Shown here piece by piece: positions 18,304-29,091 of a stretch of 64,000 bases of DNA. The DNA is from Streptantibioticus silvisoli (GTDB lineage Bacteria > Actinomycetota > Actinomycetes > Streptomycetales > Streptomycetaceae). Both the position numbers and the translations under genes were made by a program. Under the pieces are notes generated by a model. The model was not told where the DNA came from, did no database searches, and saw only the letters and a program-made list of their open reading frames with translations. Where the stretch lies: contig NZ_JAAGKO020000007.1 of assembly GCF_027947535.2 (NCBI RefSeq), forward strand, positions 62,001-126,000, in the 5' to 3' direction. How positions within the stretch are numbered: the first letter of the stretch is position 1; each line of letters starts with the position of its first letter.

Positions 18304-19218
18304 TCACTTCAAGCCCGTCCCGGCGATGCCCTCGACGATGCGGCGCTGGAAGAACAGGAAGAGCACGATGAGCGGCAGGCCGCCGAGTACCGCGGAGGCC
18401 ATGAGTTCGGCGTAGCGGATGCCGTAGGAGTCCTGGGTGGTGGCCAGGCCCACCGGCAGCGTCATCATCGACACGCTGGTGTCGACCAGCAGCGGCCACA
18501 GGAAGTTGTTCCAGGACCACACGAAGGTGAAGACCGCCACCGCGGAGACCGCCGGGCGGGTGAGCGGCATGACGATGCGGGCGTAGACCGTCCACCATCC
18601 GGCGCCGTCGGCGCGGGCGGCGTCGACGAGTTCGCCGGGGATGCCGTCGATGAACGACTTGAAGACGAACACCGCGATGGCGCTGGGCAGTTGGGGGAGG
18701 ATCACCGCCCAGTAGGTGTTGAGCAGGTGGACGGAGTTCAGCTCCTTGAACTGCGGGACCACCAGCACCTGCGCCGGGATCATCGCGCCCGCCAGGACCA
18801 GCCAGTACAGCGCGCGCCGGCCGCGGAAGTCGACGCGGGACAGCGCGAAGGCGGCCGCGCTGGCCACCACGACGGTGATCACCATGGTCAGCGCCGAGGT
18901 GATGAGGCTGTTGAGGTACCACTGGCCGATGTGGCCGGCGTCCAGCACCGAACGGTAGGCGGCGAGCGTGGGGTGGGCGCCGAACCAGCGGGTGGGGGCG
19001 GTGTTGATCTCCCCGTCCGGCCGCACCGAGGTGGCCAGCGCCCAGGCCAGCGGCAGCAGCCACAGCAGCGCGAAGACCACCAGCACCGCGCCGCACAGCC
19101 GGGTGAACGCCCGTTCCGCCGACGGCTCGCGGCGCGGGCGGCGGCGGCCGGCGCGGACCGGGGCGGGCGCACCGGTGGCGGAACGGTCCGCGGGGACGGG
19201 CGCGGTGGCGGTGGCCAT
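18304..19218 (-). CDS. Carbohydrate ABC transporter permease (MalG type)
   Basis: A 304-aa inner-membrane permease with six predicted helices. The EAA loop that contacts the ATPase is ELVDAARADGAGWWTVYARIVMPLTRP, about residues 200-226. A long basic N-terminal tail precedes the first helix. It lies 3 bp after the upstream permease gene and is the last gene of the binding-protein/permease operon. No ATPase is encoded; in streptomycetes the shared ATPase MsiK usually serves such systems (known for the group, inferred here). Confidence 0.94.
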   Translation of the reverse strand: MATATAPVPADRSATGAPAPVRAGRRRPRREPSAERAFTRLCGAVLVVFALLWLLPLAWALATSVRPDGEINTAPTRWFGAHPTLAAYRSVLDAGHIGQWYLNSLITSALTMVITVVVASAAAFALSRVDFRGRRALYWLVLAGAMIPAQVLVVPQFKELNSVHLLNTYWAVILPQLPSAIAVFVFKSFIDGIPGELVDAARADGAGWWTVYARIVMPLTRPAVSAVAVFTFVWSWNNFLWPLLVDTSVSMMTLPVGLATTQDSYGIRYAELMASAVLGGLPLIVLFLFFQRRIVEGIAGTGLK

Positions 19219-19221
19219 GGG

Positions 19222-20157
19222 TCACACTCCCTGATCGGTGCGGCGCGATACGGCGAACCAGACCGCGGAGACGGCCAGCATCACCAGGAACAGCAGGAAC
19301 GACACCGTGGCGGCGTATCCCACCCGCATGTCGGTGAAGCCGGAGTCGTAGACGTACTCCACGGACGAACGCGCCGCGCCCGCCGGGCCGCCGCCCGATC
19401 CGGCGATCAGGTACACCTGGTCGAAGACCTTCAGCGAGGCGATCACCTGCAGGACGGTGACCAGCGCGGTGGTGCGGCCCAGCATCGGCACGACGACGTG
19501 GCGCAGCCGGCGCACCGGCCCGGCGCCGTCGATGGCGGCGGCCTCCAGCACGTCGGCGGGGATGTCCTGGAGGGCGGCGAGGTAGAGCACGAAGGTGAAG
19601 CCCAGGGTCCACCACACGGTGGCGGCCGCGACCGACGGCAGCACCCAGCGCGGGTCGGACAGCCAGCCGGGCGAGGTGACGCCGACCAGCGACAGCAGGT
19701 GCTGCAACAGGCCGATGCGGTCGGCGTAGACGTAGGTGAAGACCAGCGCGACGGCGGAGACCGGCAGGACGTAGGGGGCGAAGAAGACCGTGCGGAACAG
19801 CCACCGCCAGCGCCGGACCCGTTCGGCCATCAGCGCCAGTGCCAGGCTCAGCGCCACCAGCGGCACGGTGGTCAGCACGGTGAACCACACGGTGTGCCAC
19901 AGCGTGTGCCAGAAGTCCGCGCTGGTCAGCGCCTCGCCGTAGTTGCGCAGTCCGACGAACGGGCCCAGGCCGGAGTGCACCAGGCTGGTGTTGAACAGCG
20001 AGACGACCAGGTTGTAGGCGACCGGGCCGATCATGAACAGCAGGTACAGCAGCAGGAAGGGCAGCACCATCCCGGGGCCCGCCCAGTGGTGGCGGCGGAC
20101 CGCGGCGGGGGCCGCGCGCGGGCCGGCGGCCGGCGCGGTCGGCGAGTGGACGGCCAT
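19222..20157 (-). CDS. Carbohydrate ABC transporter permease (MalF type)
   Basis: A 311-aa permease with six membrane segments (first WAGPGMVLPFLLLYLLFMIG) and the EAA loop VLEAAAIDGAGPVRRLRHVVVPMLG near residues 190-215. The ATG at 20157 was preferred to a GTG 9 codons earlier because GAGGAAGG lies upstream of it. It pairs with the MalG-type permease downstream and the lipoprotein upstream as one sugar importer. Confidence 0.93.
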   Translation of the reverse strand: MAVHSPTAPAAGPRAAPAAVRRHHWAGPGMVLPFLLLYLLFMIGPVAYNLVVSLFNTSLVHSGLGPFVGLRNYGEALTSADFWHTLWHTVWFTVLTTVPLVALSLALALMAERVRRWRWLFRTVFFAPYVLPVSAVALVFTYVYADRIGLLQHLLSLVGVTSPGWLSDPRWVLPSVAAATVWWTLGFTFVLYLAALQDIPADVLEAAAIDGAGPVRRLRHVVVPMLGRTTALVTVLQVIASLKVFDQVYLIAGSGGGPAGAARSSVEYVYDSGFTDMRVGYAATVSFLLFLVMLAVSAVWFAVSRRTDQGV

Positions 20158-20247
20158 GGCGGGGTTACCTTCCTCGCGGTGCACGGAACGGGCACGGAAA
20201 CAGGGACGGGAGCGGGGGCCCGGCGGCGGCCGGGGCGGGGCGGGCGG

Positions 20248-21606
20248 TCACAACGGGCTGGGCCGGGAGGCGAGTTCGCGCAGGCCCGCGCGCAGACTCC
20301 GGACGAATCCGGCCGGGGTCAGCCGTCCGCCGAGCAGCAGCCCGACGGCGCCGCCGGCCACCGTCTCCAGGTCCGAGCCGGCGCCGGAGTACCAGGCGGG
20401 CGGGTCGTAGGCGGCGCCGGCCACCGCGTCCGCGTAGTCCGCCTGCGGCCGCAGGTCGCGGTAGCGCCGCGAGTCGCGGGTGGGCAGCCAGGCGGGGATG
20501 TGGCCGCCCTGCGCCCACACGTAGCTGTCGTCGAGCAGTGAGGTGACGAAGGTCAGCGCCAGGTCGAGCCGGGCGGCGTCGCGCTGCGGCGAGCGCGGCA
20601 GGATCAGCGCGTGCGAGTCGGCCCACACCGCGTACGGCGCGTCGTCGAACAGCCGCGGCACCCGCACCATCCCGAAGGCAGCCTTGGTGCTCTGCACGGT
20701 GGTGACGTCCCACTCGCCGTCCAGCATGAACGCGGCCTTGCCGGAGGTGAACAGCGACACCGCGCCGTTCTGGTCCAGCTCGCCGGGCATCAGCCGCCGC
20801 CCGGTCAGCCGGGCGAGATACGCCGCCGCGCGTTCGGCCCGGTCCTCGTCCAGCACGACGGTGCGCCCGTCGCCGGCCAGCAGGTCGCCGCCGCCGAGCT
20901 GCCGGTAGCACGTCCACCACCAACGCCAGCACATGGACGGGTCGTTGGTGATGCTCATGACGGCGCCCGCTCCGCCGCACGCCTTGGCCCCGGCCGCCAG
21001 CGCGGCGGTGAACTCCGTTGAGCCTTGCAGCGGTTTGAGCTTCCCCGCCGCGTCGAGCAGGCCGGCTTTGCGGCACACGGCGGTGTTGTAGTAGAGGACG
21101 AACGGGTGGGTGTCCAGGGGCATCGCGTACAACGAGCCCTGGTAGTGCGCCTGTTGGTACGCCCTGGGGTCGAACCGCGCGGCGGTGAGCCCGTGCCGTT
21201 CCAGGTCGGCGGAGCGCAGCGGGGTCAGCAGGGACGAGGCGGCCAGTGTCGGCAGCCGCGACAGGTGGGTGACGGCGACGTCCGGCGGCCGCCGTCCGAG
21301 GGTCGCCAGCGTCAGCTTCGTGTAGTACGGGTTGCCCCACGCCAGCGTCACCGGCCGCAGCCGCACCGCGCGGTGCGCGGCCCGGAACGCGTTCTCCATC
21401 TGCTGCATGCGGGTGCCGTCCCCGCCGCCGAACAGGTTCCAGTACGTCAGCGTCCCGGCCGGGTCGGCCGCGCCGAACAGTCCTTGTCCGACGGCTGTTC
21501 CGCAGCCGGTGAGGCCGGCCGCGCCGGCGCCGCCCAACGCGAGCGCGGCGGCGGCCCGCAGCACGCTGCGGCGGCCTGGACGGCTGGTTTCGGCGGGACG
21601 CGGCAT
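20248..21606 (-). CDS. Sugar ABC transporter solute-binding lipoprotein
   Basis: A 452-aa extracellular binding protein of the MalE-like (SBP_bac_1) family. The signal has a twin Arg and a lipobox (RRSVLRAAAALALGGAGAAG then LTGC), so it is lipid-anchored. Family features include TYWNLFGGGDGTRMQQMENAF, YYNTAVCRKAGLL and AAFMLDGEWDVTTV. GGGAGGACC lies just before the ATG at 21606. It is the first gene of the transporter operon, with promoter and operator at 21708-21743. GH43 and GH2 neighbours suggest it binds oligosaccharides released by GH43. Confidence 0.94.
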   Translation of the reverse strand: MPRPAETSRPGRRSVLRAAAALALGGAGAAGLTGCGTAVGQGLFGAADPAGTLTYWNLFGGGDGTRMQQMENAFRAAHRAVRLRPVTLAWGNPYYTKLTLATLGRRPPDVAVTHLSRLPTLAASSLLTPLRSADLERHGLTAARFDPRAYQQAHYQGSLYAMPLDTHPFVLYYNTAVCRKAGLLDAAGKLKPLQGSTEFTAALAAGAKACGGAGAVMSITNDPSMCWRWWWTCYRQLGGGDLLAGDGRTVVLDEDRAERAAAYLARLTGRRLMPGELDQNGAVSLFTSGKAAFMLDGEWDVTTVQSTKAAFGMVRVPRLFDDAPYAVWADSHALILPRSPQRDAARLDLALTFVTSLLDDSYVWAQGGHIPAWLPTRDSRRYRDLRPQADYADAVAGAAYDPPAWYSGAGSDLETVAGGAVGLLLGGRLTPAGFVRSLRAGLRELASRPSPL

Positions 21607-21707
21607 CAGGGTCCTCCCGGGCGGGTGGCGGACCACGCCGGCGGGGGTCGCGCCGGCGCGTTCCCAGAACGCGGACCGCCGCCGCCGCGGCATCCTCGCC
21701 CTGGAGC

Positions 21708-21743
21708 TTCAACGTTGTATCTTCGGCGTCACGGGGGTGTCAA
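21708..21743 (-). promoter_or_regulatory. LacI operator copy 2 overlapping the transporter promoter
   Basis: TTCAACGTTGTA at 21708-21719 lies between the divergent binding-protein and LacI genes. On the minus strand a consensus -35 (TTGACA, 21743-21738) is followed 16-18 bp later by GATACA/TACAAC, which overlaps the operator. Repressor bound here would block RNA polymerase for the transporter operon and could also affect the lacI gene. Confidence 0.8.
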
Positions 21744-21814
21744 TGCATCGGACGGAGATGACACGTTCGCGTGACAGCATGTGAGTCGTTGACGACTGGC
21801 GAAGGGGGGCTGGG

Positions 21815-22831
21815 GTGGGCGCACGGATCGGCCTGAAGGACGTCGCGGCCATGGCCGGGGTGTCGTTCAAGACCGTGTCGAACGTGGTCCGGGGGGAGGG
21901 CCGGGTGTCGGCGGCCACCCGGGAGCGGGTGCTGGCGGCGGTGGCGGAGCTGGGATACCGGCCCAACCATTCGGCACGGCAGCTGCGCACCGGCCGCAGC
22001 GGGATCGTGATGCTGGCGGTTCCCGAGCTGCTGTCGCCGTACTTCGCGGAGCTGGCGGCGGCGTTCATCGCGGCGGCGAAGGAACGGCCGTGCACGGTGC
22101 TCATCGAGGAGACGCAGGGCGATCCGGAGGAGGAACTGCGGCTGGCGGCCGGAATGGTGAGCCCGCTGATCGACGGAGTGGTGCTCAGTCCGCTGCGGCT
22201 GGACCGCGAGCGGCTCGCGGCGCGGGAGGGCGACTTCCCGCTGGTGCTGCTGGGCGAACGCGAGTACGACGTGGCGGCGGACCACGTCGGCATCGACAAC
22301 GTGGCCGCGGCGCGGGAGGCCGTGCGGCACCTGCTGGCGGCCGGCCGGCGGCGGATCGGCGTGCTGGGCCGGCAGGACGACCCGTTGTTCGCGACGGGGG
22401 CGACCCGGATGCGCGGCTACCGGGAGGCGCTGGACGCCGCCGGGGTGGCGTTCGATCCGGCGCTGGCCCCGGCGGTGCCGTGGTACTCGCGCGACTGCGG
22501 GGCGGCCGGGATGCGCGAGCTGCTGACGCTGCCCGAGCCGCCGGACGCGGTGTTCTGCTTCGCGGACGTGCTGGCGTCGGGGGCGCTGCGGGCGGCGCAC
22601 GAGGCGGGGGTGCGGGTGCCGCGGGACGTGGCGCTGGTGGGCTTCGACGACGTGGAGGAGTCGCGGTTCTCGGTCCCGTCGCTCAGCAGCGTGCGCCCGG
22701 ACCGCGCCGGGATCGCGGGGCTGGCGCTGGACGCGGTGCTGGAACGGATCTCGGCGGGCGGCAAACGGCTGGAGCAGCGGGTCCTCACGGCCTCGCACGG
22801 GCTGCGGGTGCGGGAGAGCAGCGGGTCCTGA
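21815..22831 (+). CDS. LacI-family repressor of the glycoside locus
   Basis: A 338-aa regulator. The helix-turn-helix is IGLKDVAAMAGVSFKTVSNVVRG (residues 5-27), with hinge helix HSARQLRTGRSG and an effector domain with LVLLGEREYDVAADHVGIDN, PDAVFCFADVLASGALRAAHEAGVRVP and ALVGFDDVEES. The GTG start follows GAAGGGGGG. It is divergent from the transporter and upstream of the GH2 gene. Three copies of one operator flank all its likely targets, making it the local sugar-responsive repressor. Confidence 0.95.
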   Translation: MGARIGLKDVAAMAGVSFKTVSNVVRGEGRVSAATRERVLAAVAELGYRPNHSARQLRTGRSGIVMLAVPELLSPYFAELAAAFIAAAKERPCTVLIEETQGDPEEELRLAAGMVSPLIDGVVLSPLRLDRERLAAREGDFPLVLLGEREYDVAADHVGIDNVAAAREAVRHLLAAGRRRIGVLGRQDDPLFATGATRMRGYREALDAAGVAFDPALAPAVPWYSRDCGAAGMRELLTLPEPPDAVFCFADVLASGALRAAHEAGVRVPRDVALVGFDDVEESRFSVPSLSSVRPDRAGIAGLALDAVLERISAGGKRLEQRVLTASHGLRVRESSGS

Positions 22832-22882
22832 CCGCGGCCGGCGTCGCGGGCGGGCCGGTGACGGCCTCTTGCGGAGTCGTGA

Positions 22883-22894
22883 TTCAACGTTGTA
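22883..22894 (+). promoter_or_regulatory. LacI operator copy 3 (GH2 gene)
   Basis: TTCAACGTTGTA, 90 bp before the GH2 start. TTGCGG (22869-22874) and TAGTAG (22893-22898) are spaced 18 bp apart and could be -35 and -10, again overlapping the operator, as at the other two copies. Confidence 0.75.
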
Positions 22895-22983
22895 GTAGTG
22901 GCGGGTGCGGACCGGCGGACCGTCCGCCGCACCCCGCCACCGCACCGCCAGGCCCCGTCTTCCGACCAGTACGAGGACTCACC

Positions 22984-24813
22984 GTGACCAGCGTCTCTTC
23001 GGTGTCCGGCGCGGACACCACCTCACTCCCCCGGCCGGAATACCCGCGTCCGCAGTTCGTGCGGCCGGACTGGCTCTGCCTGAACGGCAGTTGGCAGTTC
23101 GAGACCGACCCCGGCGACTCCGGCCTCGAACGGGGGCTGTGCGAGCGGGAGTTGATGTCCCGCATCACGGTCCCGTTCTGCCCGGAGTCGGCCCTGTCCG
23201 GGATCGGGGAGACCGACTTCCTCGAAGCGGTCTGGTACCGCCGCGAGTTCACCGTTCCGCCCGAGTGGGCCGGGCGGCGCGCACTGCTGCACTTCCAGGC
23301 GGTCGACCACGACACGACGGTGTGGGTCAACGGCCGCGAGGTGGCCCGGCACCGCGGCGGTTTCACGCCGTTCACCGCCGACCTGCACGGCGTCGCCGAG
23401 CCGGGGACGCGGGCGGTGGTGGTCGTGCGGGCCCGCGACACCCGGCACGGCCCGCAGGCCCGCGGCAAGCAGGCCACCTGGTACGGCAACACCGGCTGCC
23501 ACTACACCCGGACCACCGGCATCTGGCAGAGCGTCTGGGCGGAACCGGTGCCGCACACCCACCTGCGGCGGCCCCGGGTGACCCCGGACCTGGCCGGTGC
23601 GGCGTTCCACCTGGAGGTGCCGCTGAGCGCCAACCGCCGCGGGCAGCACCTGGTCGCCGAACTGCGCGACGCCGACGGGGTGGTGTGCTCCGCGCGCACT
23701 CGCGCCGACCTGGACCTGACGCCGCGTCTGACGCTGGCGGTGCCACCGGATCGGGTCCGCCCGTGGTCGCCGTCCGACCCCCATCTGTACGACCTGCGGC
23801 TGGAGTTGCGCGACGGGGACAACGAGGTCGTCGACGCCTTCGACTCCTACGCGGGGCTGCGGTCGGTGTCGGTGGACGGCACCTCGCTGCGGCTCAACGG
23901 CGAGGCGTTCTTCCAGCGGCTGGTGCTCGACCAGGGCTACTACCCGGACGGCGTGATGACGGCACCGGACGACGGCGCGCTGGTACGCGACATCGAACTC
24001 GGCCTGGCCGCGGGCTTCAACGGCGCGCGACTGCACCAGAAGGTCTTCGAGGAGCGGTACTTGTACCACGCGGACCGGCTCGGCTACCTGCTCTGGGGCG
24101 AGTTCGGCGACTGGGGTGCCAAGGTGGAGGGCCCGCGCACCGATCTCCAGCGCCCGGACGCCTCGTTCGTCGCCGAGTGGCTGGAGGCGGTGGCCCGCGA
24201 CTACTCCCATCCGTCCGTCGTCGGGTGGTGCCCGCTGAACGAGACGCACCAGGTGCTGCACGACCGGCTCACCGGCCTCGACGACGTCACCACCGCGATG
24301 TTCCTGGCCACCAAGGCCGCCGACGGCACCCGGCCGGTCATCGACGCCTCCGGCTACGCGCACCGCGTCCCGTTCACCGACGTCTACGACTCCCACCTCT
24401 ACGAGCAGGACCCGGCACGGTTCGCCGCCGCGATGGCACCGCTCGCCGAGGGCAGGCCGTACACCAACACCGAGGAGGACGGCACCGCCTGGTCCGTCGC
24501 GTACCGCGGACAGCCGTATTTCTGCAGCGAGTTCGGCGGCATCCGGTGGAACCCGGACCGCACGTCGAGCGACGACTCGTGGGGGTACGGCGAAGCGCCG
24601 CGCGACGAGGAGGAGTTCTACACCCGGTTCGAGGGCCTGACCGGCGCGCTCCTGGCGGACCCGCTGATGTTCGGCTACTGCTACACGCAGTTGACCGACG
24701 TCCACCAGGAGCAGAACGGCCTGTACACCTTCCACCGCGGCCGCAAGCTCGACGTCGCCCGGCTGCGCGCCGCCCAACTCAGGCCGGCCGCCTCGGAGTC
24801 GAAGGACGCGTAG
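22984..24813 (+). CDS. GH2-family glycoside hydrolase
   Basis: A 609-aa cytosolic enzyme. It has an N-terminal sugar-binding jelly roll (LNGSWQFETDPGD ... VWVNGREVARHRGGFTPF), an immunoglobulin-like domain (RVRPWSPSDPHLYDLRLEL), and a TIM-barrel with acid/base Glu420 in CPLNETHQ and nucleophile Glu516 in YFCSEFGGI. The GTG at 22984 follows GAGGAC. GH2 members include beta-galactosidases, beta-glucuronidases and beta-mannosidases; this length and domain set do not separate them. No signal peptide: it probably trims oligosaccharides after import by the adjacent ABC system. Control by the LacI repressor is inferred from the operator upstream. Confidence 0.93.
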   Translation: MTSVSSVSGADTTSLPRPEYPRPQFVRPDWLCLNGSWQFETDPGDSGLERGLCERELMSRITVPFCPESALSGIGETDFLEAVWYRREFTVPPEWAGRRALLHFQAVDHDTTVWVNGREVARHRGGFTPFTADLHGVAEPGTRAVVVVRARDTRHGPQARGKQATWYGNTGCHYTRTTGIWQSVWAEPVPHTHLRRPRVTPDLAGAAFHLEVPLSANRRGQHLVAELRDADGVVCSARTRADLDLTPRLTLAVPPDRVRPWSPSDPHLYDLRLELRDGDNEVVDAFDSYAGLRSVSVDGTSLRLNGEAFFQRLVLDQGYYPDGVMTAPDDGALVRDIELGLAAGFNGARLHQKVFEERYLYHADRLGYLLWGEFGDWGAKVEGPRTDLQRPDASFVAEWLEAVARDYSHPSVVGWCPLNETHQVLHDRLTGLDDVTTAMFLATKAADGTRPVIDASGYAHRVPFTDVYDSHLYEQDPARFAAAMAPLAEGRPYTNTEEDGTAWSVAYRGQPYFCSEFGGIRWNPDRTSSDDSWGYGEAPRDEEEFYTRFEGLTGALLADPLMFGYCYTQLTDVHQEQNGLYTFHRGRKLDVARLRAAQLRPAASESKDA

Positions 24814-24911: not shown

Positions 24912-26021
24912 CTACGCGGTCTGCCGGACCGGCATCAGCAGCGAGAGGCGGCCGGTGGCGCCGGCCGGCCGCAGGACGAGCGGGGCGGTCGGTCCGCCGT
25001 ACTCCAGCACCAGGCGGTCGGCGCCGGCCGCGTCCAGCGCCTGGCACAGGAACTCCCGGTTGACGGCGACCCGTTCACCCGCGCCGCAGGAACTCGGGTC
25101 ACCGTCGGGGCAGACCTGGAGGGTGCCGTCCGCGCCGACGGCCAGCACGGTCAGCGGCCGGCCGGGCTCGTCGCCGTCGACCGGGTGGGCCTCGGCGTCC
25201 GCGCGCAACGCGGCCGTCGCGACCGCGAGCCGCCGGCCCTGCGGTACCGCGACCAGCCGTCGGTAGTCGGGGAACTCCTGGTCCAGGCACTCCCCCGTCA
25301 CCTGCCGGCCGCCGGCGCCGATCTCGACCCGGCCGCCGGCGAGGACCAGCCGGACCGGTTCGTCACCGGTCAGCAGGGCCCGCGCGGCGTCGGCCAGCGG
25401 CGCCGGCACCACCGCGCGGACCGGGCACCGTGCCGGGCCGGCCGTCGGCACCGCGGCGACGGCGAGCCGGTAACGGTCGGAGGCCACCAGGTTCAGCGCC
25501 TCCTCCCCCGCGACTCCCGCCTCGAACAACACCCCGTTCAGCACCGGGAGTTCGGGGTCCGCGCTGACGGCGAACCGGACCGCGTCGAGCGCGGCGGCCA
25601 GCGCCGGGGTCTGCACCGTCACGGTGACGGGCCCGGCGGGAAGAGCGGTCTCGGTCATGGGATTCTCCTTCTGGGTGCTCCGGGCGTTCCGGGCGATCAG
25701 CGAACGGACCGCGGACAGCTGGACGCGCGCGTCGGACAGGGCGTTCTCCATCCGGCGCAGGTGCGCCGCGAGCAGGTCGCCGACCAGTCCGGCGTCACGG
25801 CCGGACCAGCCGGCCAGCACCAGGCGGATGTCGGCCAGCGGCATCCGCGCCCGGCGCAGCGCCGCCAGCAGCCTGGCCTCCTCGACCTGGGCCGGGGTGT
25901 ACCAGCGGTAACCGGTGACCAGATCGACCCGGCCCGGCACCAGGACGCCGGCCCCGTCGTAGAACCGCAGCGCGCTGACGCTCAGTCCGCTGTCCCTGGC
26001 CGTGTCGCCGATCCCGCGCAT
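24912..26021 (-). CDS. MerR regulator fused to a DNA sliding-clamp (DnaN-like) module
   Basis: A 369-aa protein. Residues 1-70 are a MerR winged helix (MRGIGDTARDSGLSVSALRF, TGYRWYTPAQVEEARLLAAL) and a dimer helix follows to about 115. Residues about 130-369 resemble the middle and last domains of the beta clamp: VLNGVLFEAG, LNLVASDRYRLAVAAVP, LDQEFPDYRRLVAVP, VAVNREFLCQALDA and the C-terminal SLLMPVR. The first clamp domain is missing, so a normal replication ring is unlikely. The ATG at 26021 has GGAG upstream. The combination suggests a regulator using a clamp fold for ligand, partner or dimer contacts; function is unknown. Confidence 0.88.
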   Translation of the reverse strand: MRGIGDTARDSGLSVSALRFYDGAGVLVPGRVDLVTGYRWYTPAQVEEARLLAALRRARMPLADIRLVLAGWSGRDAGLVGDLLAAHLRRMENALSDARVQLSAVRSLIARNARSTQKENPMTETALPAGPVTVTVQTPALAAALDAVRFAVSADPELPVLNGVLFEAGVAGEEALNLVASDRYRLAVAAVPTAGPARCPVRAVVPAPLADAARALLTGDEPVRLVLAGGRVEIGAGGRQVTGECLDQEFPDYRRLVAVPQGRRLAVATAALRADAEAHPVDGDEPGRPLTVLAVGADGTLQVCPDGDPSSCGAGERVAVNREFLCQALDAAGADRLVLEYGGPTAPLVLRPAGATGRLSLLMPVRQTA

Positions 26022-26131
26022 CCCGTTCTCCACGCCCCTCACCCTGCGGCCTGCACCAGGTCGAGGGTCAAGCGGTGGCCCGTACTTCCCGGTGGCCGCG
26101 CTGTCACTGGGCCGGTGTAGTGTCCGGTGAC

Positions 26132-28176: not shown

Positions 28177-29091
28177 TCAGCGAGAGGTCGTGCGGCGTAG
28201 CCAGGCGGCGGTTCGGGCCGCCCAGGCCGCGACGGCGTCCTCCGGTGTTCCGTCGAGCAGGTGGATCGCCGATCTGTTCGAGGCCGAACGTGGCGTACCG
28301 GACGCGGGCGCGGCGCAGGTCTCCGCGTCGACCGCGGCGCGGACCCCGGCCCAGCCGTGCCAGGACAGGCGAGCGGGGTCCACGGCGCGGCGGAAGGGGG
28401 AGGCGAGGTCCCGCTTCAGGAGACCGGTCAGCCGGCCGGCCGCGTCCCCGTGGGTGGTGCCGCCGGAGCCAGGTGACCGTGGACCAGGCGGGACGGCAGC
28501 GCGGGGAGGTCGGGGCGACCCGCACCCGGCGCAACGCCGCCGGCCACCAGACGGCGGACGGCAGGGCAGCAGGCAGCAGGCAGCAGGCAGCAGGCAGCAG
28601 GCAGCAGGCAGCAGGCAGCAGGCAGCAGGCAGCAGGGCGACGACCTGGCCGGTCATCGGTTCCGCCCACCGCTCGCGGCCGGCGAGCTCGTGCGGGACGC
28701 CCAGGACGCCGTCCAGTGGCGCGAGGTCGACATCACGCAACGCGGCCGGTACGGCGGCCGGTTGAGCCGGGTCGCCCTGGCCCTTCGGGCAGGCCGCGCC
28801 GTCCGGTCAGGGCAGCGCGACGGCGGTCCGGCCGGCGAACGCGGTCACCCCGCCCTGCGGCACCGGAGCGTCGAACGGCGGACCGGCCCACGCCAGCCGC
28901 TCCAACAGCGCCGTGCGGCGCGGCAGTTCGGCGGCGGCCGCCGGGGTACGGGCGATCCGGACGGCGGCGGCACCGGGCAGCAGGACGACGGTGTGCGACT
29001 GGCCGGCGGTGACCAGCGTGCCGGTGAGGTCCTGGCCGGGCAGCGGGGCGGCGACCACCTCCCGTAGAGCGTCGGGCAGGCAGACCGTCAT
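28177..29091 (-). pseudogene. Aminoglycoside-phosphotransferase-family pseudogene
   Basis: The N-terminus is intact (MTVCLPDALREVVAAPLPGQ, SHTVVLLPGAAAVRIART with the ATP-binding region) but stops at 28807. Downstream, in another frame, come LAPLDGVLGVPHELAGRERW and PMTGQVVALLPAA. A run of 7-bp repeats follows, then LVHGHLAP where family members have HGDLA, so the catalytic Asp is His. Two more frames are needed for LASPF, DPARLSWHGWAGVRAAVD and the C-terminal AARTAAWLRRTT. The gene is clearly dead. Related intact proteins are macrolide or aminoglycoside kinases. Confidence 0.85.
28565..28634. repeat. GGCAGCA microsatellite, ten perfect units
   Basis: Ten exact copies of GGCAGCA fill 70 bp inside the phosphotransferase pseudogene. 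In the original minus frame they encode repeats of LLPAACC, seeded by the family motif ALLPA. With 7-bp units each gain or loss shifts the reading frame. Confidence 0.97.

Follow-up and report, generated by a model that had tools for sequence, protein, structure and literature searches.

The described system closest to the gene analysed here is TipA, a MerR-type regulator whose gene is translated from two starts to give TipAL and TipAS; TipAS traps thiopeptides, and TipAL activates tipA (accessible part of PMC7762955). The same scheme was proposed for AlbA and albicidin, the two products, AlbAL and AlbAS, being assumed by the authors (accessible part of PMC6078987). BmrR has the MerR DNA-binding part, a coiled coil and a long-spacer promoter as well, with a GyrI-like effector domain (same part of PMC7762955) that is unrelated to the clamp. 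On the side of the drug target, DnaN, the β-clamp, is a validated anti-tuberculosis target; griselimycin and mycoplanecin occupy its two-subsite pocket, and the gene clusters for these antibiotics hold a DnaN copy (accessible part of PMC10817943).

We analysed a 64,000-nt stretch of Streptantibioticus silvisoli DNA (hereafter the window) in which a MerR segment joined to two sliding-clamp domains had been noticed. The frame and all four clamp landmarks named in that original prediction (SDRYRLAV, FPDYRRL, VAVNREFL and LLMPVR) were found in the translation of the minus strand, and Pfam together with a structure match identifies the two domains as II and III of the clamp. The features of the locus are:

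26041–26071, minus strand: MerR-type promoter/operator, TTGACC-19 bp-CAGGGT, whose spacer contains an imperfect dyad
24912–26021, minus strand: MerR-clamp fusion gene, 369 aa, ATG at 26021, stop at 24914–24912
25812–26012, minus strand: MerR winged helix-turn-helix domain, residues 4–70 (Pfam MerR_1, E 2.1e-12)
25665–25793, minus strand: long helix, presumed dimerisation coiled coil, residues 77–119 (AlphaFold2 model)
25665–25670, minus strand: internal Shine-Dalgarno AAGGAG (codons K118–E119), an aligned element in the close clade
24912–25658, minus strand: predicted second, clamp-only product of 248 aa from an internal ATG (residue 122), from sequence signals
25266–25634, minus strand: β-clamp domain II, residues ~130–252 (Pfam DNA_pol3_beta_2 and structure match)
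24921–25265, minus strand: β-clamp domain III, residues ~253–367, with the pocket motif LLMPVR at its end (structure match)

The MerR_1 match scored 47.4 bits against a cut-off of 21.6, and DNA_pol3_beta_2 matched residues 136–252 with 57.7 bits (cut-off 27, E 1.8e-15). DNA_pol3_beta_3 reached 13.7 bits over residues 310–366, under its cut-off of 27, and the call of domain III therefore rests on structure and motifs rather than on Pfam. The MerR part takes the place of clamp domain I, which was found neither by Pfam nor in the structure match, so that the order is MerR, long helix, domain II, domain III. The TipAS domain (PF07739) that forms the drug-binding part of TipA and AlbA gave no Pfam match up to E 1; the protein is a MerR regulator that does not belong to the TipA class by domain and is not a standard clamp. 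The ATG at 26021 is preferred as start over a longer GTG at 26042 because the operator ends 19 nt before the equivalent ATG in 102 of 111 relatives. When the genome of the window was searched with PF02767, two genes were returned, this one and an ordinary DnaN.

A single-chain AlphaFold2 model, based on 37 aligned sequences (36 relatives besides the window protein), has a mean pLDDT of 83.5 and a pTM of 0.64. In this model, residues 129–367 superpose on residues 123–366 of the E. coli clamp (8vat_G; VIA-align 2) with a Z of 26.6 and an rmsd of 2.2 Å over 227 residues, which places a clamp fold in residues 130–369, the very region on which the original prediction depended. One long helix, residues 77–119, follows the helix-turn-helix, and a low-confidence stretch (residues 123–126, pLDDT <50) lies between it and the clamp. 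Dimerisation through this helix as a coiled coil is presumed by analogy with the MerR family.

To compare the clamp part with true clamps, we took the positions that form the pocket (18 residues) and the dimer interface in the E. coli clamp (accessible part of PMC11139829) and set 111 close-clade genes, all distinct (46 found by genome search and 65 at named loci), against 30 family- and order-level DnaN sequences; loci under 44% identity, genes under 900 nt, identical copies and matches stopping short of the first six residues were left out. Across the close clade, the residue commonest in DnaN filled 83% of cells in the pocket (18 columns), 26% elsewhere (216 columns) and 10% in the ring (7 columns). 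When the comparison was limited to columns with at least 90% conservation in the DnaN set, the values were 93% for the pocket (9 columns), 32% elsewhere (97 columns) and 12% for the ring (6 columns). The pocket value was matched by 1 of 20,000 random draws of 9 columns, a figure that expresses a contrast and not a true probability, since the 111 genes are related. Taken one by one, 15 of the 18 pocket columns carry the DnaN residue in at least 82% of genes; the remainder are L360 (62%), position 246 (2%; mostly Arg in the clade, as in E. coli, versus Ser, Thr or Ala in DnaN) and position 177 (0%; Met or Leu in the clade versus Phe or Leu in DnaN). This pattern supports the earlier suggestion, for which pocket conservation was a proposed check, that the clamp pocket could have been reused for a ligand or peptide. 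At the ring interface, I272 and L273 (E. coli numbers) are V and D in the window protein; position 272 is Val in 94 and position 273 Arg in 99 of the 111 genes, and at least 110 of the 111 have a gap at interface positions 301–305, whose placement varies between alignments. Because domain I is absent and the interface residues are lost, the usual ring is unlikely, and one would not expect the protein to encircle DNA. We draw no argument from a loss of the basic DNA channel, since the clade and the DnaN set could not be told apart by the net charge of the four channel helices.

The search for an operator, proposed along with the original prediction, led to the site at 26041–26071. It is the only such site in the window, and none was found in 100 shuffles. 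With a 12-base anchor and up to two mismatches allowed, the element was recovered upstream of all 111 close-clade genes, with the consensus TTGACC-CTCGACCTGGTCGAGGGCC-CAGAGT and, within a spacer of 19 bp, as is usual for MerR targets, the dyad CCCTCGACC-T-GGTCGAGGG; in one close-clade gene it ends 100 nt before the ATG. Allowing up to three mismatches in 16 genomes, one site was found in 15 of them, in each case at the gene's own promoter, and two in the sixteenth (G406); the reversed control gave 2 of 16. When two mismatches were tolerated in 297 family genomes, a site turned up in 130 of them, against 3 for the reversed pattern among the matches listed; by-hand comparison put nearly all of these sites directly upstream of a MerR-clamp gene and eight elsewhere, six of which were examined more closely. 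A strict pattern with at most one mismatch, which misses some true sites including the window's own, found a site in 118 of 394 family genomes, with 0 for the reversed control among the matches listed; this sample appears to include the 297, and its newer genomes (G1022 and others) were counted by site alone. The best reading of these sequence data is that the MerR-clamp gene is autoregulated through its own promoter.

Some of the additional sites deserve mention as observations in their own right. Those in G613 and G193 stand before what is left of the regulator gene, that in G619 lies before another MerR gene at two mismatches, and G418 and G426 also have sites at two mismatches in the set of 297. 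In G406, an operator-like site (L102:2374–2404) precedes a frame that by eye looks like a transporter, a possible further target; we leave it as a side point because the frame has no clear start codon.

The second feature recalling TipA is a predicted internal start between the MerR and clamp parts. A Shine-Dalgarno sequence with a start codon 6 or 9 nt downstream is present in 110 of the 111 close-clade genes (105 ATG and 5 GTG), the remaining gene having TTG at the internal-start position. The Shine-Dalgarno forms are mostly AGGGAG, AAGGAG or CGGGAG, and at the protein level the relatives have in common a pattern R/K-E-x-x-M between the long helix and the clamp. Codon choice at these positions is marked. 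Met or Val stands at the internal-start position in 101 genes, encoded by 97 ATG and 4 GTG and by no other Val codon. Within the Shine-Dalgarno, 89 of the 111 genes use the rare codon AGG for Arg, whereas AGG makes up 216 of the 4544 Arg codons of these genes, the 89 included; over 285 columns this Arg showed the strongest codon bias, followed by Leu108 (CTA) and Arg106 (CGA). When pairing with the 16S tail was computed along 354 columns, residue 122 was the best, with a mean of -8.39 kcal/mol against a median of -3.67; residues 240 (-8.30) and 177 (-8.26) were close runners-up. Together, these signals predict a clamp-only product, as in TipA.

Just upstream of the internal Shine-Dalgarno, at 25695–25715 of the window (residues 103–109), unusual codons are kept, a sign of constraint at the nucleotide level: of the 105 Arg codons at residue 106, 75 are CGA; of the 99 Leu codons at residue 108, 61 are CTA; and Ser103 is TCC in all 111 genes. 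A hairpin masking the Shine-Dalgarno appeared plausible in single folds but gained no overall support from synonymous-codon shuffling, in which 59 of 110 genes fell below the shuffle mean with a mean z of -0.23; lower values (0.17 versus 0.36) were seen in a subgroup of 15 divergent loci.

Taking the TipA gene plan and the DnaN pocket together, we read the gene as a self-regulated sensor of, and sink for, ligands of the clamp pocket, probably antibiotics of the griselimycin type. It would be a TipA-like MerR device built on a clamp mimic that cannot form the ring; we favour this with slightly better than even confidence. In such a scheme, ligands of the DnaN pocket, most likely clamp poisons of the griselimycin/mycoplanecin type, would bind domains II–III of a MerR dimer, and the ligand-bound dimer would twist its own 19-bp-spaced promoter and so turn on transcription. 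The induced mRNA would then be translated twice, into the full-length sensor and, from the internal ribosome-binding site, into the 248-aa clamp-only protein, which would mop up the ligand and spare DnaN. In at least one lineage, the operator is also present ahead of a stand-alone clamp-only gene and another complete DnaN.

The likeness to TipA and AlbA thus lies in the MerR DNA-binding part and in activation of the own promoter (accessible parts of PMC7762955 and PMC6078987), regulation being predicted here, and the likeness to TipA further in a second start, which there yields an antibiotic-sequestering isoform (PMC7762955) and here is predicted from the start signal in the close clade. In contrast to both, the presumed ligand-binding part consists of β-clamp domains II–III. 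With DnaN the protein has the fold of domains II–III and the ligand pocket in common; it differs in lacking domain I, in its lost ring interface and in its fusion to MerR. GriR and MypR also link a clamp copy to clamp-targeting antibiotics; however, they are DnaN-encoding genes of biosynthetic loci (accessible part of PMC10817943), whereas in the window protein a shortened clamp is attached to a regulator, and no such cluster was seen among the neighbouring genes that were read. On this reading, the gene would be a TipA-like sensor-and-sink that uses the drug target's own pocket; we found no paper on a MerR-clamp fusion in the open-licence literature.

A tie between the operator and clamp genes comes from genomes with more than one site. 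Two strict operators occur in 3 of the 394 family genomes. One of these, G539, simply has two MerR-clamp genes. In G554, the second site lies before a free-standing gene for a 252-aa clamp-only protein, with a complete second DnaN 35 nt further on, and in G528 it lies ~70 nt before a second complete DnaN (dnaN2); each of these two genomes also has a MerR-clamp gene with its own site. The dnaN2 of G528 shares 79% identity with its G554 counterpart and 49% with the main DnaN of G528; the two dnaN2 are orthologues, so the arrangement probably reflects one evolutionary event, and among 70 genomes of their genus a dnaN2 match above 51% identity was found in these two only (limit E 1e-105). This arrangement ties the operator to clamp genes and resembles the idea of GriR and MypR. 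Against the proposed reading, the dnaN2 protein keeps nearly the usual DnaN pocket, and its resistance is for that reason not evident. The clamp-only protein of G554 keeps hydrophobic residues at 272/273 and has Leu in place of the pocket residue Arg365.

Also counting against it, no giant NRPS-like frame was seen by eye in 65 kb of contig around the dnaN2 of G528, and the one giant frame 11 kb from the G554 operon is a DUF11-repeat protein and not a synthetase. A DnaN of Embleya NBC_00896 lies ~21 kb from a MerR-clamp gene, where the sole operator match was at the MerR-clamp gene itself. Of 31 genomes from the family and order, 10 carry additional DnaN copies, complete or split; no TTGAC-type operator was found within 200 nt upstream of the aligned start in any of the 14 stretches taken (L226–L239), the start being uncertain in four, and the third DnaN of G528 has no operator in its locus.

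The main rival, which we consider unlikely although the strongest of the four, is a replication-stress sensor, in which the pocket would read free clamp-binding motifs of DnaE, ImuB or the clamp loader and so report replisome collapse or DNA damage. The pocket matches that of the host group's DnaN, so that host clamp-binding motifs should fit it, and the second DnaN that follows the operator in one lineage would be consistent with replication stress. However, DnaN would face competition from a clamp-only product able to bind host motifs, and in 15 of 16 genomes the sole site detected was that of the gene itself. The distribution of the gene argues in the same direction. A match at E ≤1e-20 was found in 143 of 297 family genomes, a lower bound, with six candidates scored per genome, that mixes a close clade (~45–64% identity), a distant clade (~30–41%) and broken or split copies; this agrees with the expectation that comparable fusions exist in other streptomycetes. 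The other 154 genomes gave no match at that threshold, and several copies are split or truncated (G419, G456, G544, G626, G610, G616 and G650), a pattern of frequent gene decay that would be unusual for a core stress sensor. In-frame TGA codons were also seen in the copies of G443 (C8) and G467 (C1). Frequent absence and breakage fit an accessory resistance gene but prove nothing.

At the level of the class, a search with a two-clade profile gave near-full-length matches in at least 29 of 394 genomes among the matches listed, with one further match, in G023, that misses the first residues. Most of the remaining listed matches were to the clamp part alone, as DnaN would give, or to the MerR part alone, and those in G858 and G941 were partial or split fusions. 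Named relatives, taken from the best 80 of 283, include Streptomyces flaveolus, S. canus, S. lincolnensis, S. albus, Kitasatospora aureofaciens and Actinacidiphila glaucinigra.

Less probable again is that the clamp domains bind an unrelated small metabolite and that the pocket survives through packing. The effector domains of MerR regulators are diverse, and a second MerR-clamp clade (C, stretches L061–L074), ~30–41% identical, indicates that parts of the pocket can outlast a change of ligand: its 14 genes mostly keep subsite I and do not keep subsite II, and they probably respond to a different ligand. The close clade, in contrast, keeps DnaN residues in both subsites, whereas the ring columns and the 97 other DnaN-conserved columns are mostly not kept. 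Clade C has its own features. By eye, a TTGACCTTC promoter is present in 13 of 14 upstream stretches; the internal-start motif is missing from the 14 genes compared; and the next gene on the same strand is of one family in 8 of 14 stretches, with no Pfam match for the one member scanned.

An anti-phage decoy, in which clamp-seizing phage proteins would bind the mimic and trigger the mimic's own synthesis, is improbable. Phage clamp inhibitors exist, and 7evp, a complex of Gp168 with the clamp, was among the structure matches; however, no relative was found in 50,697 phage records, and no neighbouring gene is common to more than 8 of 80 named loci. Least tenable is the four-domain ring on DNA of the original prediction, for although two clamp domains per chain in a dimeric MerR protein make four, the absence of domain I and the replaced and gapped interface positions speak against it.

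The sensor and sink for clamp-pocket ligands, then, is the reading we carry forward. We would extend it, more tentatively and at somewhat less than even confidence, to a streptomycete target-mimicry immunity, in which an excised clamp pocket on a MerR switch senses antibiotics that poison the clamp, supplies a decoy through an internal start and, in some lineages, brings a spare clamp into play. If this were true, one gene would unite sensor-plus-sink resistance of the TipA type with spare-target resistance, the pocket of the drug target serving as sensor, and the spread of the gene would imply that soil contains many more clamp-directed antibiotics than the few known today. Each promoter would then be a ready reporter for finding clamp-directed antibiotics in whole cells. 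It would also account for an architecture annotated merely as 'MerR family transcriptional regulator', the name given to a copy in the public record WP_331734198.1. Large plasmids of Streptomyces and Embleya also carry relatives (6 of 72,556 plasmid records), which means that a trait of this kind could move.

The DUF6882 neighbour, named in the original prediction as co-occurring with the gene, is not conserved: over stretches L001, L008–L080 and L104–L183, tblastn recovered it in two stretches of the window's own genome alone. Near-identical short direct repeats lie at ~28500–28650 of the window, with QQAAGSR and LLPAACC units in their translations. Adjoining the gene, at 18304–24813, is a likely sugar-use cluster with two frames that by eye resemble permeases, a LacI regulator at 21815–22831 and, at 22939–24813, a glycoside hydrolase related to β-glucuronidase that scored under the model cut-off.
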